64,000 bases of DNA, from assembly GCA_011037195.1 (NCBI GenBank), contig JAAEAF010001543.1:162735-226734 (forward strand), in the 5' to 3' direction. A program made the translations under genes and the position numbers. Below, one piece after another: positions 9,321 to 52,202 of the stretch; position 1 is the stretch's first letter, and the number at the start of each line of letters is the position of its first letter. The notes under the pieces were generated by a model. It did not search any database. It was not told the DNA's origin and saw only the letters and a program-made list of their open reading frames with translations. The DNA comes from Triatoma infestans (lineage: Eukaryota; Arthropoda; Insecta; Hemiptera; Reduviidae).

Positions 9321-12300
9321 TTCAGTGGAATTAATGTCGACTAGCTGTATCTTCGATATGCTTAGTTTCATACAAAACATGTGACCGATGTTTTGAACCA
9401 TTTAATATGTACCATTATGAAATTTCATTTTAGTTATAAATAAAATTATTGAATGTGATTTGTTTTCATAAAAAAGAAAGTGATAATATTTCTTCCATTG
9501 TGCAAGTTAAATTCAAAATTCCATCTTTAATAATACGTAGTTGATTATGATTAAAACACGTATAAAGTCTTTTAAAAAATATTGAGATAAAATTCTCATA
9601 TTCTGGTATAACATACCACATATGTGGTTTTGAAAAAACGTGCTTAGGTAGAAATTCCAGTTCATTTAAAAAGAAATCTGCCATTTTGAATTTACAACAT
9701 TATTTGAAATATAGCTTGGTAATGGCATAGATGTAGTGGGGAAAAAAAAGTAATATAAATACGTGACTCTGTGTGTGTATGGTGTGATGTATGTGCGTAT
9801 GTATGGCTTATAGTGCGATGTTGATGAGTGGAGTAAAATGAGGGAGGTATTGTTAGGAGCAAAAACTGTGGCACTCTCATTCGTGATATATGTATCCGTG
9901 GAAGCTGTCTAATGAGCGGGGAATGTAGGGCGAACGAACAGTGGCCGCACACTGAGAGCATCATTCCCCTCGGGGGTTGTTTTATCGCTGCCAACGCCAA
10001 CAGGCGGATAGACAGAGATAGTGAGAACATTGTTTAGAGGGGAGGAATGGTAAAAGAGAGAGAGATAGAGAGAAAATGGTTTTGAGTTGGTTTGGTGTAC
10101 AGAGCGGCGGTGCAATAGTTGGCAGTTTCTCTTAACACGCAGCACTGTTCTCTAGGTGGTCGACAACCGGTTTAATTAAAACTTGTGTGAATGGCGGCTT
10201 CGCTCTTCAACGTGCCCGCTTTCCTTTCACACGCATACCCACCTACCTCACTTTTCCTTTCTGAGTTAAGCTAGGGCACCCTTCTTGTGTTGGTCGGTTG
10301 TATCATAGTGAGGGTTTGGGATCCCAACTGCAATTCCCTTGTTAACTTGCCACCTCCAGATGCTGAAGGTTTTTATTTCCAATAGTCCAATTGGTAGATA
10401 GTGTTAGTATCAAACCTTTAAGGATCCTTACTGGCAAGGGAAGGAACAAGAATATTTGCCATTGTTTGGGGAGGGGGATGGCCAGCGAATGTTAGGAAAT
10501 TCATTTAAATTCTTTTAGTAAACAACTACTGGTTAGACGTTAATTCTAAATAGAAAGCTAAATAAAGTACTGATGATGGAAAGAGAGAGAATGTGCGAGA
10601 GTGATAAACTGATAAACCTAACAGAATTGACTGGCTGGGAGGCTCCAATGGACGTCTAATAGGCCTTGGAAAGCCCATCACTACTATGCTAACCCACAAA
10701 ATTCATTAATCAATCTCCCCTTCCATTTCTCTTCAACTGTTTGAAATAGTTAGTGGGAAAAAACAATTGTATTAATTGACAAGTTGAATTAAACACCTAA
10801 AGAGTGTAGAGTAGGCTTTGAGAATGAAGTTTACTACTAACACACTGGGGGCTGATAGACTAGTGCGGCCAATTACATTAAAGCATAGAGAGAACTTGGT
10901 AGTGAAATAATCCAGAAGAGATAAGGCGCCGTTTCAAGCACCCCCCAATTGATGGACTCTTCCATTTGTTTGCTAAAAGCAGCCAGTGTTTTTTTTAGAT
11001 TTGAATAACTTTTTTTCTAATTTTTTTTATTTGTACATTTTACCACTTCTGAATACCACCACGTAGTCTTTTTGCTTGTATTTTCAACACCTGGAATACT
11101 TTAGTGGTTTTCCCTTTTCAACCTTTTCTCCCATTCATCCATTTTCTTCGTAAGATACATTTCCAGAGAATATAATCACATAATGCTTTTTCATTTTGTC
11201 ACCATAATATATTTTATTTTATTATAAGCTATTTTTTCACTAAAATTCTGTTTTTATCATTTTTCATTACTTTATCCCTTCACTATTATTAATTTTCTTA
11301 ACATAATCAACTTCAAAGTCATTTCCGATACCGTGATATTCTTTTATACCTTTAAATTTGAAATGATTGGATCTAGAGATGCTTGTAATTATGTGTGAAC
11401 AGCCCTGCATCATTTTGTAGTCATCTACAGGATTTCAGATGTTCGCTTATTTCTCAGGATGTTTTGTGAACCTTTCACAATGTCACGAAAACTGCAAAAA
11501 TAATTTATTCAGTAATCAGAGAAAACGTTTTGTTTGTTGAAGTTTGCCCGATTGTTTTGAGAGCTTTTTGCGATTTTTCGTTTATCGTATTTCTCTGCAG
11601 TTAGATTTTGCCTAGTGATTGTGAGATAACGGAACACAATCAAGATTATGCGGAAGATAGATGATCACGAAATCATCACAAAATGAAGCACCATCAAGAA
11701 ATAAAATAAACACTGAAACCTTATATTTAAATCAGATTAACTCAGATTTAACTATTTTTTTTCTTTTCGTAATCTCTTATGTAAGACGAAGTCTTACGTT
11801 CATATAACTTCCCGAGTTTAAAAAAAACAAAACATGTTTTTTCAACATTTCTGTTAATGCAATATGGCTATACTCACAAAACTAATTACATAGCTTCAAA
11901 CATGAATTTTTTTTATTAAATTTTTAGTTTCCTTCACTTTATGTAGATTGCGGGAGCTCTAATTCATCGAAATGACCGTTTCACAGAATTAATTCTCTCA
12001 TATAAACATTTCCCTGAAAACGAATCAAATAAATGTGATGTGTATAGAACTAATACTCCAAATTTAATGAAAATTCATTATTGCGGGACACTTTAAATTG
12101 AAAATGATGAAATGAAAGTAGAAAGTGGCAGTTTTCTAATTGGCCAAACACCGATTATGAAAGTAACACTTTCGGTTGATGAATATTGCCTGGAACCTTT
12201 GACATATTAGTCGGGGATAAAAAATATCCGACATTTTATTCCATAGTAGCGTGATTACGATTGTTAGCAATTTATAAATTGTTGTAGATCCCTAAAAATA

Positions 12301-19782: not shown

Positions 19783-21724
19783 TTGGAAGGTTTGGTAAAC
19801 AGTGGGAATTGTTTTGTAGAATGGTGGTGGAATCGTTTCTGTAGACCAGGCGGGACACATATATAACCACAGCAGAAACATCTGCGTCACACAACATACA
19901 CCACCACATACTAGGGACCCCAAACTAGCCCCTGGTGGAGACGCCAAGAGAGTGGTTGGGTTGTGATGTGTTATATAACTAGTTAAAGAGAGGGGTCATG
20001 TGTGTATGAGGGCGATATAGTGTGGTCTCATTGGACTGTTAGTTATCCGCAAAATTGTCCATCCTTGCGGCAGAGCTTATTTACAAGGACTGTAGAAAAG
20101 GTAAAAACCGCCATTACACATACCACCGCATGTAGTACTTGTACAGATGTTTGTATTATACATCTACACACATACACACACAACACCCATACGTATAAGC
20201 ATCCTATAGTAATGTTGAGGCCAGAGAACTGTGTTTATTGCATGGTCATTAGGAAATCGTGGAAAACAGAGGCGGACTTTTATCCCGGTTTTATAACAAG
20301 TGTCATCATTTGGTTGCCACGCCTCTGAACAACTTAACATTCGCACGATTTTAACGGAAAAAAAAGTGTGTACATTACCATCGTTCTGACCATGTTGCAA
20401 ACATCAAGTACGATATTTACCAAAGCCTTTAAAAGGGTATATTCCGAATTTCGTCACCCTGGACGGAACAACTGCCATGATAGAGGGCTCCTCTATATAA
20501 TGAGAGGGTAATGGACATACTTTAACAGGTTTTAGGAGAGAAATTAGTGAGGAAGGTTTTTTGAGAAATAAGCTAGAATGAATGCTGAACACTGTATAAT
20601 AAAATAGAGACAGGAATCTGCTGGAACTTTCAACATAAATAGAAATTAGAGATTTGGACCGAGTAAAGAGAAAGGTAGTAGTTGGTTGCTGACGCGGTGT
20701 AACTGCTGTATCAACTGTTCTAAAGACGGTCCCATATAGGGCTAGCGCAGCTGTATTTATGCAGAGTCTCCCACTCTGCGTAAGTCGGCCTAAGTAACGA
20801 GTGAGATTCTCAAGTTTGTGTCTCTCTCTGTCTCTGCTTTAGATCCCTCTTTAGCACATACCTATATTTATGGGCTGCGACCATAGGTCCAGGACCTTAG
20901 TCAGCCCGGGAACTTTGTTTACCTGGAAGAGATCGCGCTGTAACATTTCTGCTGAGAAGATATTAATACAGGGAACGCTCAATATGTCTTAAATGCAAAT
21001 TGTTATTCTCTGTGATAGGCAAACTGAAAGCGACTGGCTTAGTGGGATGGTAGAACTTGAAACCAACTATAGGGCGCCAAGGATTTCGAGAAAACAAGAT
21101 GGAGGATGAATTGGCGTTTCAAGGCGCCGCTTTGCTCTTTGTTAGCTCCGAACTTTTCTGAGACATTTGTAGATGCCTAATTGGGTTATTTAATAACACT
21201 CAGACCCTGTGGAACAGAGCAGGCAAAGCATTATATGGGAGCGATTCGCCTGCCTTTGTGGGGGTTATTTTAAGAACAGAACGCCAACTTATTCCCTGGA
21301 CTTCAGTAACAATTTCAATGTGAAGAGTGTTTGTCCTGATAGTGGAAAATTGCTAGTAATAACTGGTGTTTCTTTCCTGTTAAATGCAGAAACAGCATTT
21401 GGTGATGAACGTTCAGGTGATAGAAAGTTGAACCTGTTGAAATTCATCGTCGATTCAATTTCAGTAACATTAACAAATATGGTGGATGAACAAAGTTCAA
21501 GTTCAAGCACTTAGACAACCCAATGGATTAGGGATCAGCGAACAAAATCCTATACTGGCTAGAATATGTATCTTATATCCTGCGATGGGAAAAGTGACAT
21601 GGCGGGGAGAAATTACTTCGATAAAAAGTACCATTAATTAAATTTGTCAGGATATTTTCTAGGCGCTCCTCTTATTATTAATTTTTTTGGCTGAGCAAAA
21701 ATTCCAATGGTCATGACCAGTTTC

Positions 21725-21835
21725 TTCGGGGCTTTGTCCCATATTCAGGATGTCTTGGCATAACACACTGCGACTTGAAAGTTCTTTTTTTTTTAGCATT
21801 CTCATTGCTCTGCCGGGCTCTCCTTCCGTTTCTTC
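21725..21835 (-). mobile_element. SINE-1 3'-part fragment (possible)
   Basis: The segments around CACTGCGACTTGAAAGTTCT and CATTGCTCTGCCGGGCTC align with CTGCGACCTGAAGGTTCT and neighbouring sequence in the copy at 39,900-40,221. The head is absent. Confidence 0.4.
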
Positions 21836-27596: not shown

Positions 27597-28667
27597 TAAA
27601 ATCTTTAGATTTTTGAACTTTTGTTATTACGATTGTATTAATTTCATCATTAAAATAAATTTAGAGTAAAGTGTGGCTCAGAACTAATTAGGAATATACC
27701 AAGTGGTTTATTTATTTGTTATACATAACATATGTTCAATTTTAGTTATTGTCCAAGAGGGAACTTTTGCCTGTTAAAGTTGGTGCCAGACTAAGTGGGG
27801 AGATACGCTGACAACTAGTATAGAAGGGTGTTCGTAATATGATTACATTTCTGCCACTTTCTTCTATCAGGTTTTTTTCTTTTTTTGTCCTTTTCCGACA
27901 CTTCTCATTCTCTTGTTTCCATCCGTACAATTCTCTTTCAGAACAAAAAAAAAAAAGAAAATAATAATGTTTGGATACAAAAGAACTTTAACTTCCTATT
28001 TCTTTGTTCACTAGTTGTCATTGTCTCGCAAACACCCTTTGTTAGGTCTCTTTTAGGGACCACATTGACAAACTAAAGCTCTATAAGATTCGAATGAACA
28101 CTATATATATTTATAATTTATACTCCTTTTTTTAAAAAAACATAGGATATAATATAAATCTAATTTATAGTCGTGACTATTTCATCAGATACTTATTAAA
28201 TTGTTTAGTGATTGCCATATATCCTTGGAACGGTAAAAAGAAAAGAGAGAATGAAGGATGATAAATGTTATAATTCTTAGAATGAATTTCGAATATTCTT
28301 AGAATCATTTTGACTATATTCGAGGGTGAAGAGATAAAATTTCAGTAAGTAAAGAGACAGATAACTGTAAATATTATAACAGTAACTATACTTTCAATAA
28401 CATACACAATTATTGATAAGAACAGTTAAAAGCAGCTAGGTAAAAAACACTGTTTCAATAAACATAACTCCATTATTCATTCAGCGATAGTAAGAAATCT
28501 GCACTTTAGAAGAACAGTGTAATGTGGTAACAGTTTTCAGATTTTCAGGAAGTGTAACCGTCTAAAATTTACTTGAGCAGTGCCGGGGAAATATTGATAA
28601 TAAAATGGTACGAACTTCTGCAAAAGTATCAGAGACATTTTCCGCGATAGCCTGCTTCTTTTTGTGT

Positions 28668-28709
28668 CATCGACCCGGACCGTTTCGGGCGTTCGCCCAT
28701 CATCAGATG
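28668..28709 (-). ncRNA. Hammerhead ribozyme-like motif, left arm of copy 1
   Basis: On the minus strand: CTGATGA, an unpaired T, stem II GGGC-GAAC-GCCC, then GAAA, so both invariant blocks are intact. Stem III is disturbed by 4 extra bases (CGGTCCGGGTC instead of CCGGTC), and one base of stem I just before CTGATGA is missing. It may be weak or inactive. Confidence 0.5.
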
Positions 28710-28823
28710 TTTTGTCAAAACCGTGTGATAATACAGACTTGCACAGAGCAAATACAGTTGATACAATTAAGTGCTACTTACGTGTTCAGTGCAAGTCTAT
28801 GTTATTACACTGTTTTGATAAAA

Positions 28824-28861
28824 CATCCTGATGGCGGGCGGACGCCCGGAAGCGGTCGATG
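28824..28861 (+). ncRNA. Decayed hammerhead-like motif, right arm of copy 1
   Basis: Same layout, CATC-CTGATGG-CGGGC...GCCC-GGAA-GCGGTC-GATG. The change A9 to G and the change of GAAA to GGAA hit residues that are normally invariant, so cleavage is unlikely. Confidence 0.4.
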
Positions 28862-28951
28862 ACCACAAAAAAGAAGTAGGCTATCGCGGAAAATGTCTCT
28901 GATGCTTTGCAGCTCTGCGGAACCAACCACCACAACAAATTCTGCAAAAGT

Positions 28952-36782: not shown

Positions 36783-36835
36783 TCAATTTATAATTATCAG
36801 AGACATTTTCCTGGTAGCCTGCTTCATTTTGTGGT

Positions 36836-36873
36836 CATCGACCGGTTTCGGGCGTTTGCCCATCTTCAGAATG
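36836..36873 (-). ncRNA. Hammerhead ribozyme-like motif, left arm of copy 2
   Basis: Minus strand: CATT-CTGAAGA-T-GGGC-AAAC-GCCC-GAAA-CCGGTC-GATG. Position 7 of CUGANGA tolerates any base in known hammerheads, so the core is intact. Stem I is GATG/CATT (one G-U pair). Stem III is the minimal palindrome ACCGGT, so a dimer would be needed to pair it. Confidence 0.6.
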
Positions 36874-36995
36874 CGTTTGTAAATTTGCACAGAGCAAATT
36901 CAGTTATACACTTACTTTGTTGTATACACTCACACTGAGTGTATAAACTGAATTTGCTCTGTGCAAATCTGTGTTATCACACTATCTGACAAACG

Positions 36996-37033
36996 CATCC
37001 AGAAGATGGGCGAACGCCCGAAACCGGTCGATG
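36996..37033 (+). ncRNA. Decayed hammerhead-like motif, right arm of copy 2
   Basis: Same layout, but the core reads CAGAAGA rather than CTGANGA (U4 to A). GAAA, CCGGTC and GATG are kept. Probably inactive. Confidence 0.45.
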
Positions 37034-37122
37034 ACCACAAAATGAAGCAAGCTACCACAGAAAACGTCTCTGATACTTTCCAGCTCTGCGGAACCGACCA
37101 CCACAACAATCAATTCATAATT

Positions 37123-38789: not shown

Positions 38790-39036
38790 GTAGTTGTGGT
38801 GGTTGGTTCTGCAGAGCTGGAAAGCATCAGAGACATTTTCCGTGGTAGCCTGCTTCATTTTGTGGTCATCGACCGATGGGAGTGTGTAAAAACTGAATTT
38901 GCTCTGTGCAAGTCTGTGTTATCACACTGTCTGACAAACGCATCCTGAAGATATCGATGACCACAAAATGAAGCAGGCTACCACGGAAAATGTCTCTGAT
39001 GCTTTCCGGCTCTGCGGAACCAAGCACCACCACACT
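38790..39036. mobile_element. Hammerhead foldback element, copy 3 (ribozymes deleted)
   Basis: A symmetric version of the family. Both ends carry the tail (left GTTGTGGTGGTTGGTTCTGC, right GCTTTCCGGCTCTGCGG) outside the ATCAGAGAC / GTCTCTGAT boundary. Both arms have lost the segment between the GTCATCGACC and ATC/GAT elements, which removes stem II and GAAA of the hammerheads (right arm: CATCCTGAAGATATCGATGA). The length is about 247 bp. No target duplication was found. Confidence 0.75.
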
Positions 39037-48629: not shown

Positions 48630-49078
48630 AAACCGTGAAAAACACTCAAACACACGACTTTCTCTTACTGCAATTAAAACAATTACTTCAAATTCGGAAT
48701 CCTTACTACAAATATAAGTTGTCCTTAACATTAAGTACATGTTGGTAATCAGCTTGTTCGGCTTCAGAAAAACTACAAGCTGAATGTGAGGACGTAATCT
48801 GAAGAAATAACTTCCATGAGACTGTAAATAACGCTTGAAATTTATCGCGGATTTACCAGAATCTCCCTAAAATTAATTTTTCCAGGAAAATGCTTCAAAA
48901 AAATTCAGAGATTTAAGAAAATCGTCGGGACTCGTTTTCGTGATAATATAAAAAAAAAAAAATCAAGAAGATTATTCTGTAAAGTAACATACTTTCCACT
49001 TAGTTGTTGTGGTGGTTGTTCCACAGAGCTAGAATACATCAGAGACATTTTCTGTGATAGCCTGCTTCTTTTTGTGGT

Positions 49079-49116
49079 CATCGACCGGTTTCGGGCCTTC
49101 GCCCATCATCAGGATG
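49079..49116 (-). ncRNA. Hammerhead ribozyme-like motif, left arm of copy 4
   Basis: The cleanest instance in the window. Minus strand: CATC (stem I), CTGATGA, unpaired T, GGGC-GAAG-GCCC (stem II), GAAA, CCGG (minimal stem III with the flanking A and U), cleavage triplet GUC, GATG (pairs with CATC). Known family features: short-stem-III hammerheads occur in Penelope-like retroelements and can work as dimers. The unpaired T beside the core is unusual compared with textbook hammerheads. Activity is inferred, not shown. Confidence 0.65.
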
Positions 49117-49260
49117 TTTTTGTTAAACAGAATAACATAGGCTTGCACAGAGCACATACAGTTGATACACTCTATATTTGCGTATCAATCATCTGCGTAG
49201 CTTATGTATCAATTGTATTTGTTCTGTGCAAGTCAGTGTTATTACACTGCTTAATAAAAA

Positions 49261-49298
49261 CATCCTGATGATGGGCGAAGGCCCGAAATCGGTTGATG
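49261..49298 (+). ncRNA. Hammerhead ribozyme-like motif, right arm of copy 4
   Basis: Plus strand: CATC-CTGATGA-T-GGGC-GAAG-GCCC-GAAA-TCGGTT-GATG. Two substitutions relative to the left arm turn stem III into one with a G-U pair and the cleavage triplet into GUU, both tolerated in principle. The core blocks are intact. Confidence 0.55.
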
Positions 49299-49999
49299 AC
49301 CACAAAAAGAAGCAGGCAATCACGAAAAATGTCTCTGATACTTTCCATTTAACCGTTTTTTTTTCAATAAATGTGCAACGTTTAAGGAGTTACTTTTCGA
49401 AAAAATTGCTTATATATTCGCACTTGTAGTAGACGGATTTTGAACGAAAATTTTGAGCGAAGGGGGTACCTAAACGGAATATTAAGATTCGTATTTCTAC
49501 AATTTTTATTTTTGAGATATATTATTTTTTTTTTAAATTGTGTTCTTTCGACCAACTTAGACCTTATAATTAATTATCTCTAGTTATATTTTATTTTCAG
49601 GACTGATCAAGATCACCTTTTGAAAGAAACTGCAAAAGTTTTTTATTTTTTGCAGATGTTTCAATAAAATATAATCATCATTAGTGCTGCAAAAAACACT
49701 GTATATTTGTTTTAAAACACGAACATATTATTGACTAGATTGTGCTTATTGAATGTTAGTATGTTCGAAACATTATCTTTTTCAGCGTAATTATTTTTGA
49801 AACAATGAAATTATTCTTGAGATATTTTTGTTAACAAACACACGTCTTTTTCTAAGAACATTTTTTTCTTTCATGCTCAAGGTACCTCCAAAACATATAC
49901 TTCTGCTGATAAATTTTCAATAAGAAAACTATCAATTTATCAATTTCGAAACTTTGACACGATTATAATATCTCCTCTTGCAGAAGAAAGAGGAAGTAA

Positions 50000-50683: not shown

Positions 50684-51128
50684 TTTACTGCTGGTAACAG
50701 GAAGTAGTGACGCGATCGCATTCAAATTTTCGTAATCAAAATTTCACCGGAAATAATATTTTGAGGCTTCTTAAGTGCGATAAAAAGATGTTTTTACCAA
50801 TTAGGCTATGTGCGTTTGCTTGTATGTATGTAAATCGTTTAAGACCATCACCGCATGTAACCAAGAGTAAGGTTTCCGTCTATAACCGGAAGTGTGATAT
50901 TACTGAATTTTTTGTTCTAGTTTTTCGCGATTTTCCTTTAATTTTATATTTTCACTTTACACATTTGAAGCATTTTCCAAAAAAAAAAAAAAGAATTCCT
51001 AGTTTGAAGAAAATTGGTTTGAAAAGGTAGTGCGATTTTATTGAAGACATTTTCTAACTATTTAGAATTATCTCTAAAAACTGCTCCAATGATTTTCTTT
51101 AAATTTTGAATGTTATTTGCGCAAATAT

Positions 51129-52202
51129 GCCTATGACAGTGGCCTTCGCCAGAAACTATTTGAAGCAATGGAGGAGATGAATATCCCCTCAAAATTGGTC
51201 AGGCTGATTAAGCTAACAATGTCCGAAATAACATGTGCAGTGCGTCTTCAAACTGAGCTATCAGCTGGATTCAAAACAAATAAAGGACTGAGGCAGGGAG
51301 ATGCTCTGGCCTGCCTCCTGTTTAACCTCGTGCTGGAAACAGTGGTCAGAAAGTCGGGTATACAAACCTTAGGCACTATTGGTAATAAATCCGTCCAACT
51401 GCTGGCATATGCGGATGACGTGGATATCATAGCAAGATCCCTCCCTGCATTGAAGAACGCCTTCCGTGCACTTCAAGAGGCGGCGCTATCTGTTGGCCTC
51501 ACGATCAATGAAGATAAAACAAAATATATGTATGTCGGAGGTGGTAGCGGGCCCCCTGGAGACAGACTTCAAATAGATTCCTTCTCCTTTGCGAGAGTTC
51601 AGGAATTCACATACCTGGGCTCCCAAGTTAATGCCTCCAATATCATTTCGCAGGAGATCGGCAAAAGAATAATGGCTGCCAATAGGTGCTACTTCGGTCT
51701 GGTCCGATACATGAAGAGCAGCCTGATCTCCAGAAAGACGAAGGCCAGGCTATATAAAACATTGATCCGCCCAGTTTTGACCTACGCCTCTCAGACATGG
51801 ACCATCCCAAGGGTTGATGAGAATAGACTCCTAATCTTTGAGAGAAAAATTCTTCGAAGGATCTTTGGTCCTGTGAAGGAGGGAAACATCTGGAGAAGGA
51901 GGCACAATGGAGAGCTTTATCAACTCTTCGGTGAGGCGGACGTAGGGCGCGTAATAAGACTAGGAAGGCTGAGTTGGGCGGGGCACGTGGCGAGGATGGA
52001 TGTTGGACAGATCCCTAGAAGACTGCTTGAGGCAGCGATTGGTGAAGAAAGAAAAGTGGGCAGACCAAGGCTGAGATAGGAGGATGGTGTCGCCGGTGAT
52101 GCAAGAAGTTTGCTGAAAGTAAGTAATTGGAAAGCGGCTGCAAACAACCGAGATCAATGGAACGGACTCATTAGGGAGGCTAGGACCCACTTAGGGTTGT
52201 AA
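51129..52202 (+). pseudogene. LINE reverse transcriptase, C-terminal two-thirds, truncated
   Basis: The open frame enters from the target duplication (no true start) with AYDSGLRQKLFEAMEE, just downstream of the first catalytic Asp of reverse transcriptase motif A, which is lost. GLRQGDALACLLFNLVLE and the catalytic AYADDVDII follow (about 51,408-51,434), then VQEFTYLGSQV, RPVLTYASQTWT, FERKILRRIFGPV, LSWAGHVARM and GRPRLR. A TAG at 52,077-52,079 stands where relatives have Trp (RW-D-GV). The same frame then runs on through EDGVAGDARSLL to TAA at 52,200-52,202. The order of motifs without an RNase H domain fits RTE-like LINEs of arthropods. No endonuclease is present, so the copy cannot act alone. 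Confidence 0.9.

Follow-up and report, generated by a model that had tools for sequence, protein, structure and literature searches.

Organization of the foldback elements

The 64-kb window (the whole stretch of DNA that was analysed) contains a 336-bp foldback element, E49, which was recognised by its inverted arms, by ends that it has in common with two further copies (E28 and E36) and by a flanking duplication. The features of E49 and its relatives are listed here, with PLE standing for Penelope-like retroelement.

49004..49339, minus strand (the sense of the putative ORF): foldback element E49, 336 bp, 5' end ATCAGAGAC, 3' end CCACCACAACAA
49079..49116, minus strand: hammerhead-like motif of the tail-bearing arm (E49R), composed of CATC, CTGATGA, an extra T, GGGC-GAAG-GCCC, GAA, ACCGGT, C and GATG; 12 of 12 core positions; putative cut after GTC
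49261..49298, plus strand: hammerhead-like motif of the other arm (E49L); 12 of 12 core positions provided that position 17 may be any base except G (here T)
49004..49106, minus strand: putative relic of a PLE ORF start in the tail-bearing arm, with its ATG at 49106-49104 and with a stop and a one-base deletion
49004..49037, minus strand: AC-rich 'tail', 34 nt (consensus 35), on this arm only, the other end having no counterpart
49338..49351: first copy of the flanking duplication, TAAATGGAAAGTAT on the minus strand, overlapping the first two bases of the element
48989..49002: second copy of the flanking duplication, TAAGTGGAAAGTAT on the minus strand
28628..28938, plus strand: E28, second copy, 311 bp, both ends as in E49; flanked by TTCTGCAAAAGT at 28616-28627 and 28940-28951
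36796..37109, plus strand: E36, third copy, 314 bp, both ends as in E49; flanked by TCAATTTATAATT at 36783-36795 and TCAATTCATAATT at 37110-37122; ORF-start ATG at 37006
38791..39034, plus strand: E38, fourth copy, with an internal deletion, tail sequence at both ends and both ribozyme cores deleted
11404..11469, minus strand: decayed single-arm fragment (nhmmer E 7.5e-6)
21708..21765, minus strand: possible decayed single-arm fragment (nhmmer E 1.7e-4)

The two arms of E49 (49038-49135 and 49242-49339) are each 98 nt long, 91% complementary and 106 nt apart, and nested inside them is another, shorter inverted pair (39 nt, 85%). Each arm carries CTGATGATGGGCGAAGGCCCGAAA, followed by a short GC-rich run and GATG. 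These data bear out the preliminary description of the locus, which had reported a hairpin of about 337 bp at 49003..49339 with a hammerhead-like core on each strand (minus 49116-49079 and plus 49261-49298), together with related copies at 28,628 and 36,796, the positions at which E28 and E36 do start. The fourth copy and the two faint fragments are additional to that description; in the nhmmer control for the fragments, the reversed window gave a best E of 0.076. All arm matches in the 64-kb window are inverted pairs or lone fragments, with no direct tandem arrangement among them.

When read in the sense of the ATG, E28, E36 and E49 share both their start (ATCAGAGACATTTT) and their finish (CCACCACAACAA). 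The tail is present on one arm only in three of the four copies and on both arms in E38, and the consensus arms differ in length by 35 nt. In all three uninterrupted copies the tail-bearing arm finishes within CCACCACAACAA, 103-105 nt from the ATG (consensus +104; the corresponding codon of E28 is GCG), and the tail-less end stops at the position matching +69.

Direct repeats of 12-14 bp, which we read as target-site duplications, flank E28, E36 and E49 (three of the four copies). When 20,000 pairs of 20-nt segments were drawn at random from the window, 0.05%, 0.085% and 0.05% of them, respectively, reached the observed match scores of 12, 11 and 12. These percentages are somewhat generous, the element boundaries having been set with the repeats already in view. 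Inspection of the E38 flanks by eye revealed no duplication. We also note that the target sequences of E28 (28616-28627) and E49 (49338-49351) have AAAGT in common, and that GGAAAGTAT of E49 matches the family's own sequence just beyond the tail-less end (GGAAAGYATCAG), which may reflect microhomology at the 5' junction.

A hammerhead-like motif at a putative ORF start

We scored the hammerhead core at 12 positions, using a position list based on the general hammerhead consensus. On this basis all 12 positions are present in four of the eight arms (E49R, E49L, E28L and E36L), one of which, E28L, has lost a stem I base and gained bases in stem III. The core of E36R carries a change of U4 to A, and that of E28R changes of both A9 and A13 to G. 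Stem III of the plus-strand E49 motif (49261..49298) is formed by ATC/GGT and includes one G-T wobble. Between A9 and stem II, each of the six motif-bearing arms has one additional base, which the preliminary description does not mention; it is a C in E28R and, in the other five, a U that is also the U of an ATG. One viroid hammerhead is said to tolerate an extra residue after A9.

The motif is commoner in the window than in shuffled sequence. The pattern CTGATGATG..CGAAA occurs three times in the 64 kb, whereas 100 dinucleotide shuffles averaged 0.00, and the looser CTGANGA..GAAA..KATG occurs four times against a shuffle mean of 0.37, a count of at least four being reached in 0 of 100 shuffles.

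The motif region is retained in six of the eight arms, as CTGAWG-ATG-GGC in four of them, as CAGAAG-ATG-GGC in E36R and with GCG instead of ATG in E28R, so that five of the six have an ATG at the base of stem II. Counted from this ATG, the putative cut after GTC falls at +24. The frame that follows is open to the end of the tail in E36R, where it translates as MGERPKPVDDHKMKQATTENVSDTFQLCGTDHHNN. A frame that stays open for about 34 codons could well be a chance occurrence, and word-based protein searches with the 35-residue ORF start, for which three shared 5-residue words were required, returned no homologue.

Conservation of the motif and its flanks

Differences from the majority were tallied over the six motif arms. 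With gaps set apart, these amounted to 4/72 in the core, 11/155 in the rest of the motif, 13/244 in the ORF start that follows and 29/189 in the upstream part of the pseudo-LTR (pLTR, the repeat unit that each arm represents under the interpretation below); with gaps counted as differences, the corresponding figures were 4/72, 12/156, 15/246 and 44/204. One of the four core differences is the T at position 17 of E49L, which is still permitted. Variation in the core is thus on a par with that in the downstream ORF start. Conservation spans the whole ORF-start segment, which falls within the first 172 nt of ORF required by the enzyme of the Anolis PLE (PMC11167929), and does not single out the ribozyme. 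The preliminary description had named a core mutated as often as its flanking sequence as an outcome that would speak against a ribozyme, and the answer depends on the flank: the core is changed about as often as the downstream ORF start, but less often than the upstream pLTR.

A covariance-model search, which had been proposed along with the ribozyme, did not lend it support. Rfam gave nothing at the gathering score across the 64-kb window, and the nine matches returned for 48900-49450 at E<=10 included no hammerhead. Given the extra base, the lack of an Rfam match, a core that is no better conserved than the ORF start and an intact core in four of the eight arms, the case for a hammerhead, as judged from sequence, is weak, and any ribozyme is probably of little consequence in these copies.

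Predicted folds and the proposed ribozyme switch

In ViennaRNA predictions for the 345-nt minus-strand RNA (49347-49003), the hairpin has an energy of -201.1 kcal/mol, compared with -137.4 kcal/mol once the fold is constrained to include stems I and II of the 3' ribozyme. The predicted hairpin takes up the motifs of both arms in E28, E36 and E49 alike. When the isolated motifs were folded as two strands, an intermolecular ACCGGU stem III was favoured in three of the six arms (E49R, E36L and E36R), with the two-strand form of E49R at -26.5 kcal/mol against 2 x -11.5 kcal/mol for the separate strands, and a different duplex was the best two-strand form in the remaining three. In single-strand folding, several isolated motifs adopted structures other than the hammerhead. 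The motifs recall the minimal type I hammerheads of PLEs, which reportedly cleave as dimers with an intermolecular stem III: the setting is PLE-like, stems I and II are short, and stem III is very short (a loopless ACC/GGU palindrome in E49R, E36L and E36R). They differ from these hammerheads in the base inserted after A9, ahead of stem II, at the ATG and in the absence of an Rfam match.

The preliminary description had gone further, proposing that the foldback is a functional unit whose RNA alternates between a hairpin in which the ribozyme is hidden and a self-cleaving form, with cleavage serving the element. The full core in both arms of E49 and the intermolecular stem III predicted for half of the motif arms are in line with such a model. 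Several other observations argue against it, however. The ribozyme fold lies about 64 kcal/mol above the hairpin in the full RNA, making a switch unlikely; the other three motif arms form different duplexes; and whichever direction is transcribed, the antisense arm is made ahead of the sense ribozyme. In addition, the core is damaged or deleted in four of the eight arms, contains an extra base, matches no Rfam hammerhead and varies about as much as the ORF start. Finally, in the PLE of Anolis, core mutants that had lost RNA cleavage nevertheless inserted normally in vitro, and cleavage itself required protein (PMC11167929); that report also states that RNA-seq ends at the cut site were not observed. 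Taking energy, conservation and the published mutants together, we rejected the regulatory switch, which we consider highly improbable.

Resemblance to Penelope-like elements

The elements are very probably ORF-less miniature PLE insertions, in which two pLTRs lie head to head, each of which would extend from the leader into the first part of the PLE ORF. The resemblance is one of anatomy, and as such is well supported by the apparent pLTR, the tail, the flanking duplications and the position of the ORF start within the ribozyme motif. That the arms include the start of a putative PLE ORF is part of this reading, in which, taken as a whole, we have high confidence. A PLE reverse transcriptase or GIY-YIG endonuclease was found in none of the 10 window frames, from a total of 16 of at least 110 codons, that were scanned against Pfam. 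The tails at both ends of E38, with no evident duplication, count against the PLE reading.

As described in PMC3846280, Penelope insertions in Adineta can have inverted pLTRs with an optional 31-bp tail on one of them, the inverted pLTR being 37 bp shorter. These pLTRs include the first ORF codons, duplications of 8-10 bp accompany some copies and not others, and palindromes at the head-to-head junction are attributed to self-priming (PMC3846280). The elements described here are accordingly like Pen2a_Av, an endonuclease-bearing Penelope of Adineta vaga, in their head-to-head pLTRs, one-sided tail, ORF start within the pLTR, junction palindromes and short duplications. They are unlike it in having no ORF between the pLTRs and in the length of the duplications (12-14 bp versus 8-10 bp), and the pLTR plus tail would span about 34 ORF codons here versus 22 in Pen2a_Av (PMC3846280).

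The second parallel, drawn by description, is with Poseidon of Anolis carolinensis (PAc; PMC11167929), which likewise has a hammerhead motif across its ORF start, with the cut 26 bp after the ATG in PAc and the putative cut 24 bp after it here. Insertions end within an AC-rich segment in both cases, at about 104 nt into the putative ORF here versus 111-118 nt in PAc, and in both two alternative ends delimit the tail. The Anolis enzyme is reported to start at a stem-loop that is AC-rich and lies 111-118 bp into the ORF, with an optional tail of 30-40 bp between its two start sites, to cleave and extend both strands, and to need the first 172 nt of the ORF (PMC11167929). The clean ends of the present family, at +69 and about +104 from the ATG, thus resemble the tail limits obtained with the lizard PLE in vitro. 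Unlike the E49 family, PAc is protein-coding and is arranged in tandem repeats (PMC11167929).

The ends and arms also bear on whether these copies could instead belong to a transposase-mobilized DNA transposon of the foldback or MITE type, in which the resemblance to hammerheads would be incidental. Long inverted arms around a short centre would suit such an element, as would the tail at both ends of E38. Against this, the ends are asymmetric in three of the four copies, the duplications vary between 12 and 14 bp, the arms appear to hold an ORF start, and both ends fall near the expected start sites of PLE reverse transcription. We rejected a DNA transposon on the grounds of the asymmetric ends and variable duplications, and regard it as very unlikely.

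A non-autonomous element of the metazoan retrozyme kind, spreading via circular RNA, was also considered. Metazoan retrozymes are small hammerhead-containing retroelements without coding sequence, whose mobilization is attributed to LINEs or PLEs, and their circles measure about 170-400 nt (PMC7229834), a range that accommodates the non-coding copies of about 310-340 bp found here with their type I-like hammerhead motif. According to the same source, however, retrozymes are arranged as direct tandem repeats and their type I motifs are canonical, whereas the present copies are single inverted pairs whose ends do not lie at the cut sites and whose stem III is minimal. The inverted single copies and the lack of direct tandems in the window led us to reject this explanation, which appears extremely improbable.

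Under the PLE reading, the motif is built into the junction between the leader and the ORF start of each pLTR, and an inverted pair therefore necessarily has one motif on each strand. The mirrored layout, which the preliminary description took to be undescribed, is largely ordinary, since it follows from head-to-head inverted pLTRs of the kind already described (PMC3846280), and minimal hammerheads in PLE terminal repeats are themselves known (PMC7761336 and PMC6431247, citing Cervera & de la Pena 2014). In the open literature searched, we found no explicit statement that inverted pLTRs place a hammerhead on each strand; the primary papers on PLE hammerheads may say so. Of the preliminary interpretation as a whole, then, the link to Penelope holds on anatomical grounds, while the novelty of the layout and the hairpin/ribozyme switch lack support: a striking layout is explained by known Penelope biology, with no evidence for a new ribozyme switch.

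Proposed mechanism and origin of the arm pairs

From what the copies directly show, namely their anatomy, the ends that they share, the duplications and the pairing of the arms, we infer the following series of events. A PLE protein, presumably encoded by an autonomous PLE, would bind the RNA at the ORF start and nick AT-rich DNA. Reverse transcription primed about 104 nt past the ATG, within the AC-rich segment, would then give rise to the tail-bearing end. The inverted end could be made by self-priming or turn-around at the palindromic centre; alternatively, the second nicked strand could prime synthesis at the upstream start site (about +69). Repair would leave duplications of 12-14 bp. Any ribozyme cleavage is likewise putative.

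To compare the arms, an unrooted tree was built from the shared part of the pLTR in seven of the eight arms, leaving out the short E38L. The arms of one element group together in all three elements tested, with bootstrap values of 79 for E28, 73 for the split of the E49 arms, and 57 for E36 inside a group of E36 and E38 at 100%. The two arms of an element are not in every case each other's best match by raw identity, E36R and E38R being 91.2% identical compared with 86.6% for E36's own arms. The grouping suggests that each pair plausibly came from one type of RNA, or that its arms have been kept alike since; the pair itself would plausibly have originated through self-priming at the palindromic centre, or else with both nicked strands serving as primers. 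E38 could stem from priming on both strands or from later rearrangement.

It is also conceivable, although we hold this only tentatively and think it rather improbable, that the foldback is a miniature unit in its own right, a MITE-like parasite of a PLE. In that case a PLE enzyme would copy the ORF-less, self-complementary pLTR pair whole from its hairpin RNA, and copying across the hairpin would keep the arms alike. The presence of four copies in 64 kb, of which the three uninterrupted ones are similar in size (311, 314 and 336 bp), and the same two ends in three of the four fit such copying. The same data fit equally well with each foldback being made anew at insertion from ordinary pLTR RNA. 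Whichever applies, a family of short inverted pLTR pairs would offer a compact test system for the head-to-head copying of PLEs, which PMC3846280 explains by proposal only.

The arms fall into two subfamilies, one comprising E36 and E38 (AAAATGAAGC, ACC; bootstrap 100%) and the other E28 and E49 (AAAAAGAAG, with ATC replacing ACC).

Other motif matches and neighbouring sequence

Pattern scans for the motif in viral contigs gave 0 matches. Two matches in contigs of bacterial metagenome-assembled genomes (L001 and L002) showed no pLTR flanks in the stretches inspected (1-600 of L001 and 3560-3900 of L002) and were taken as chance.

A 328-codon open frame with an RVT_1 domain (E 3.1e-18) lies 2 kb from E49, at 51093-52076 on the plus strand. 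We considered this reverse transcriptase frame as a possible PLE and set it aside as probably LINE-type from its relatives among the best 120 of 843 matches. The few of these that carry organism names are mostly from insects and a spider, with one labelled as a fungus, which makes an arthropod the probable host, and on this sequence comparison we read the frame as a truncated LINE-type element.
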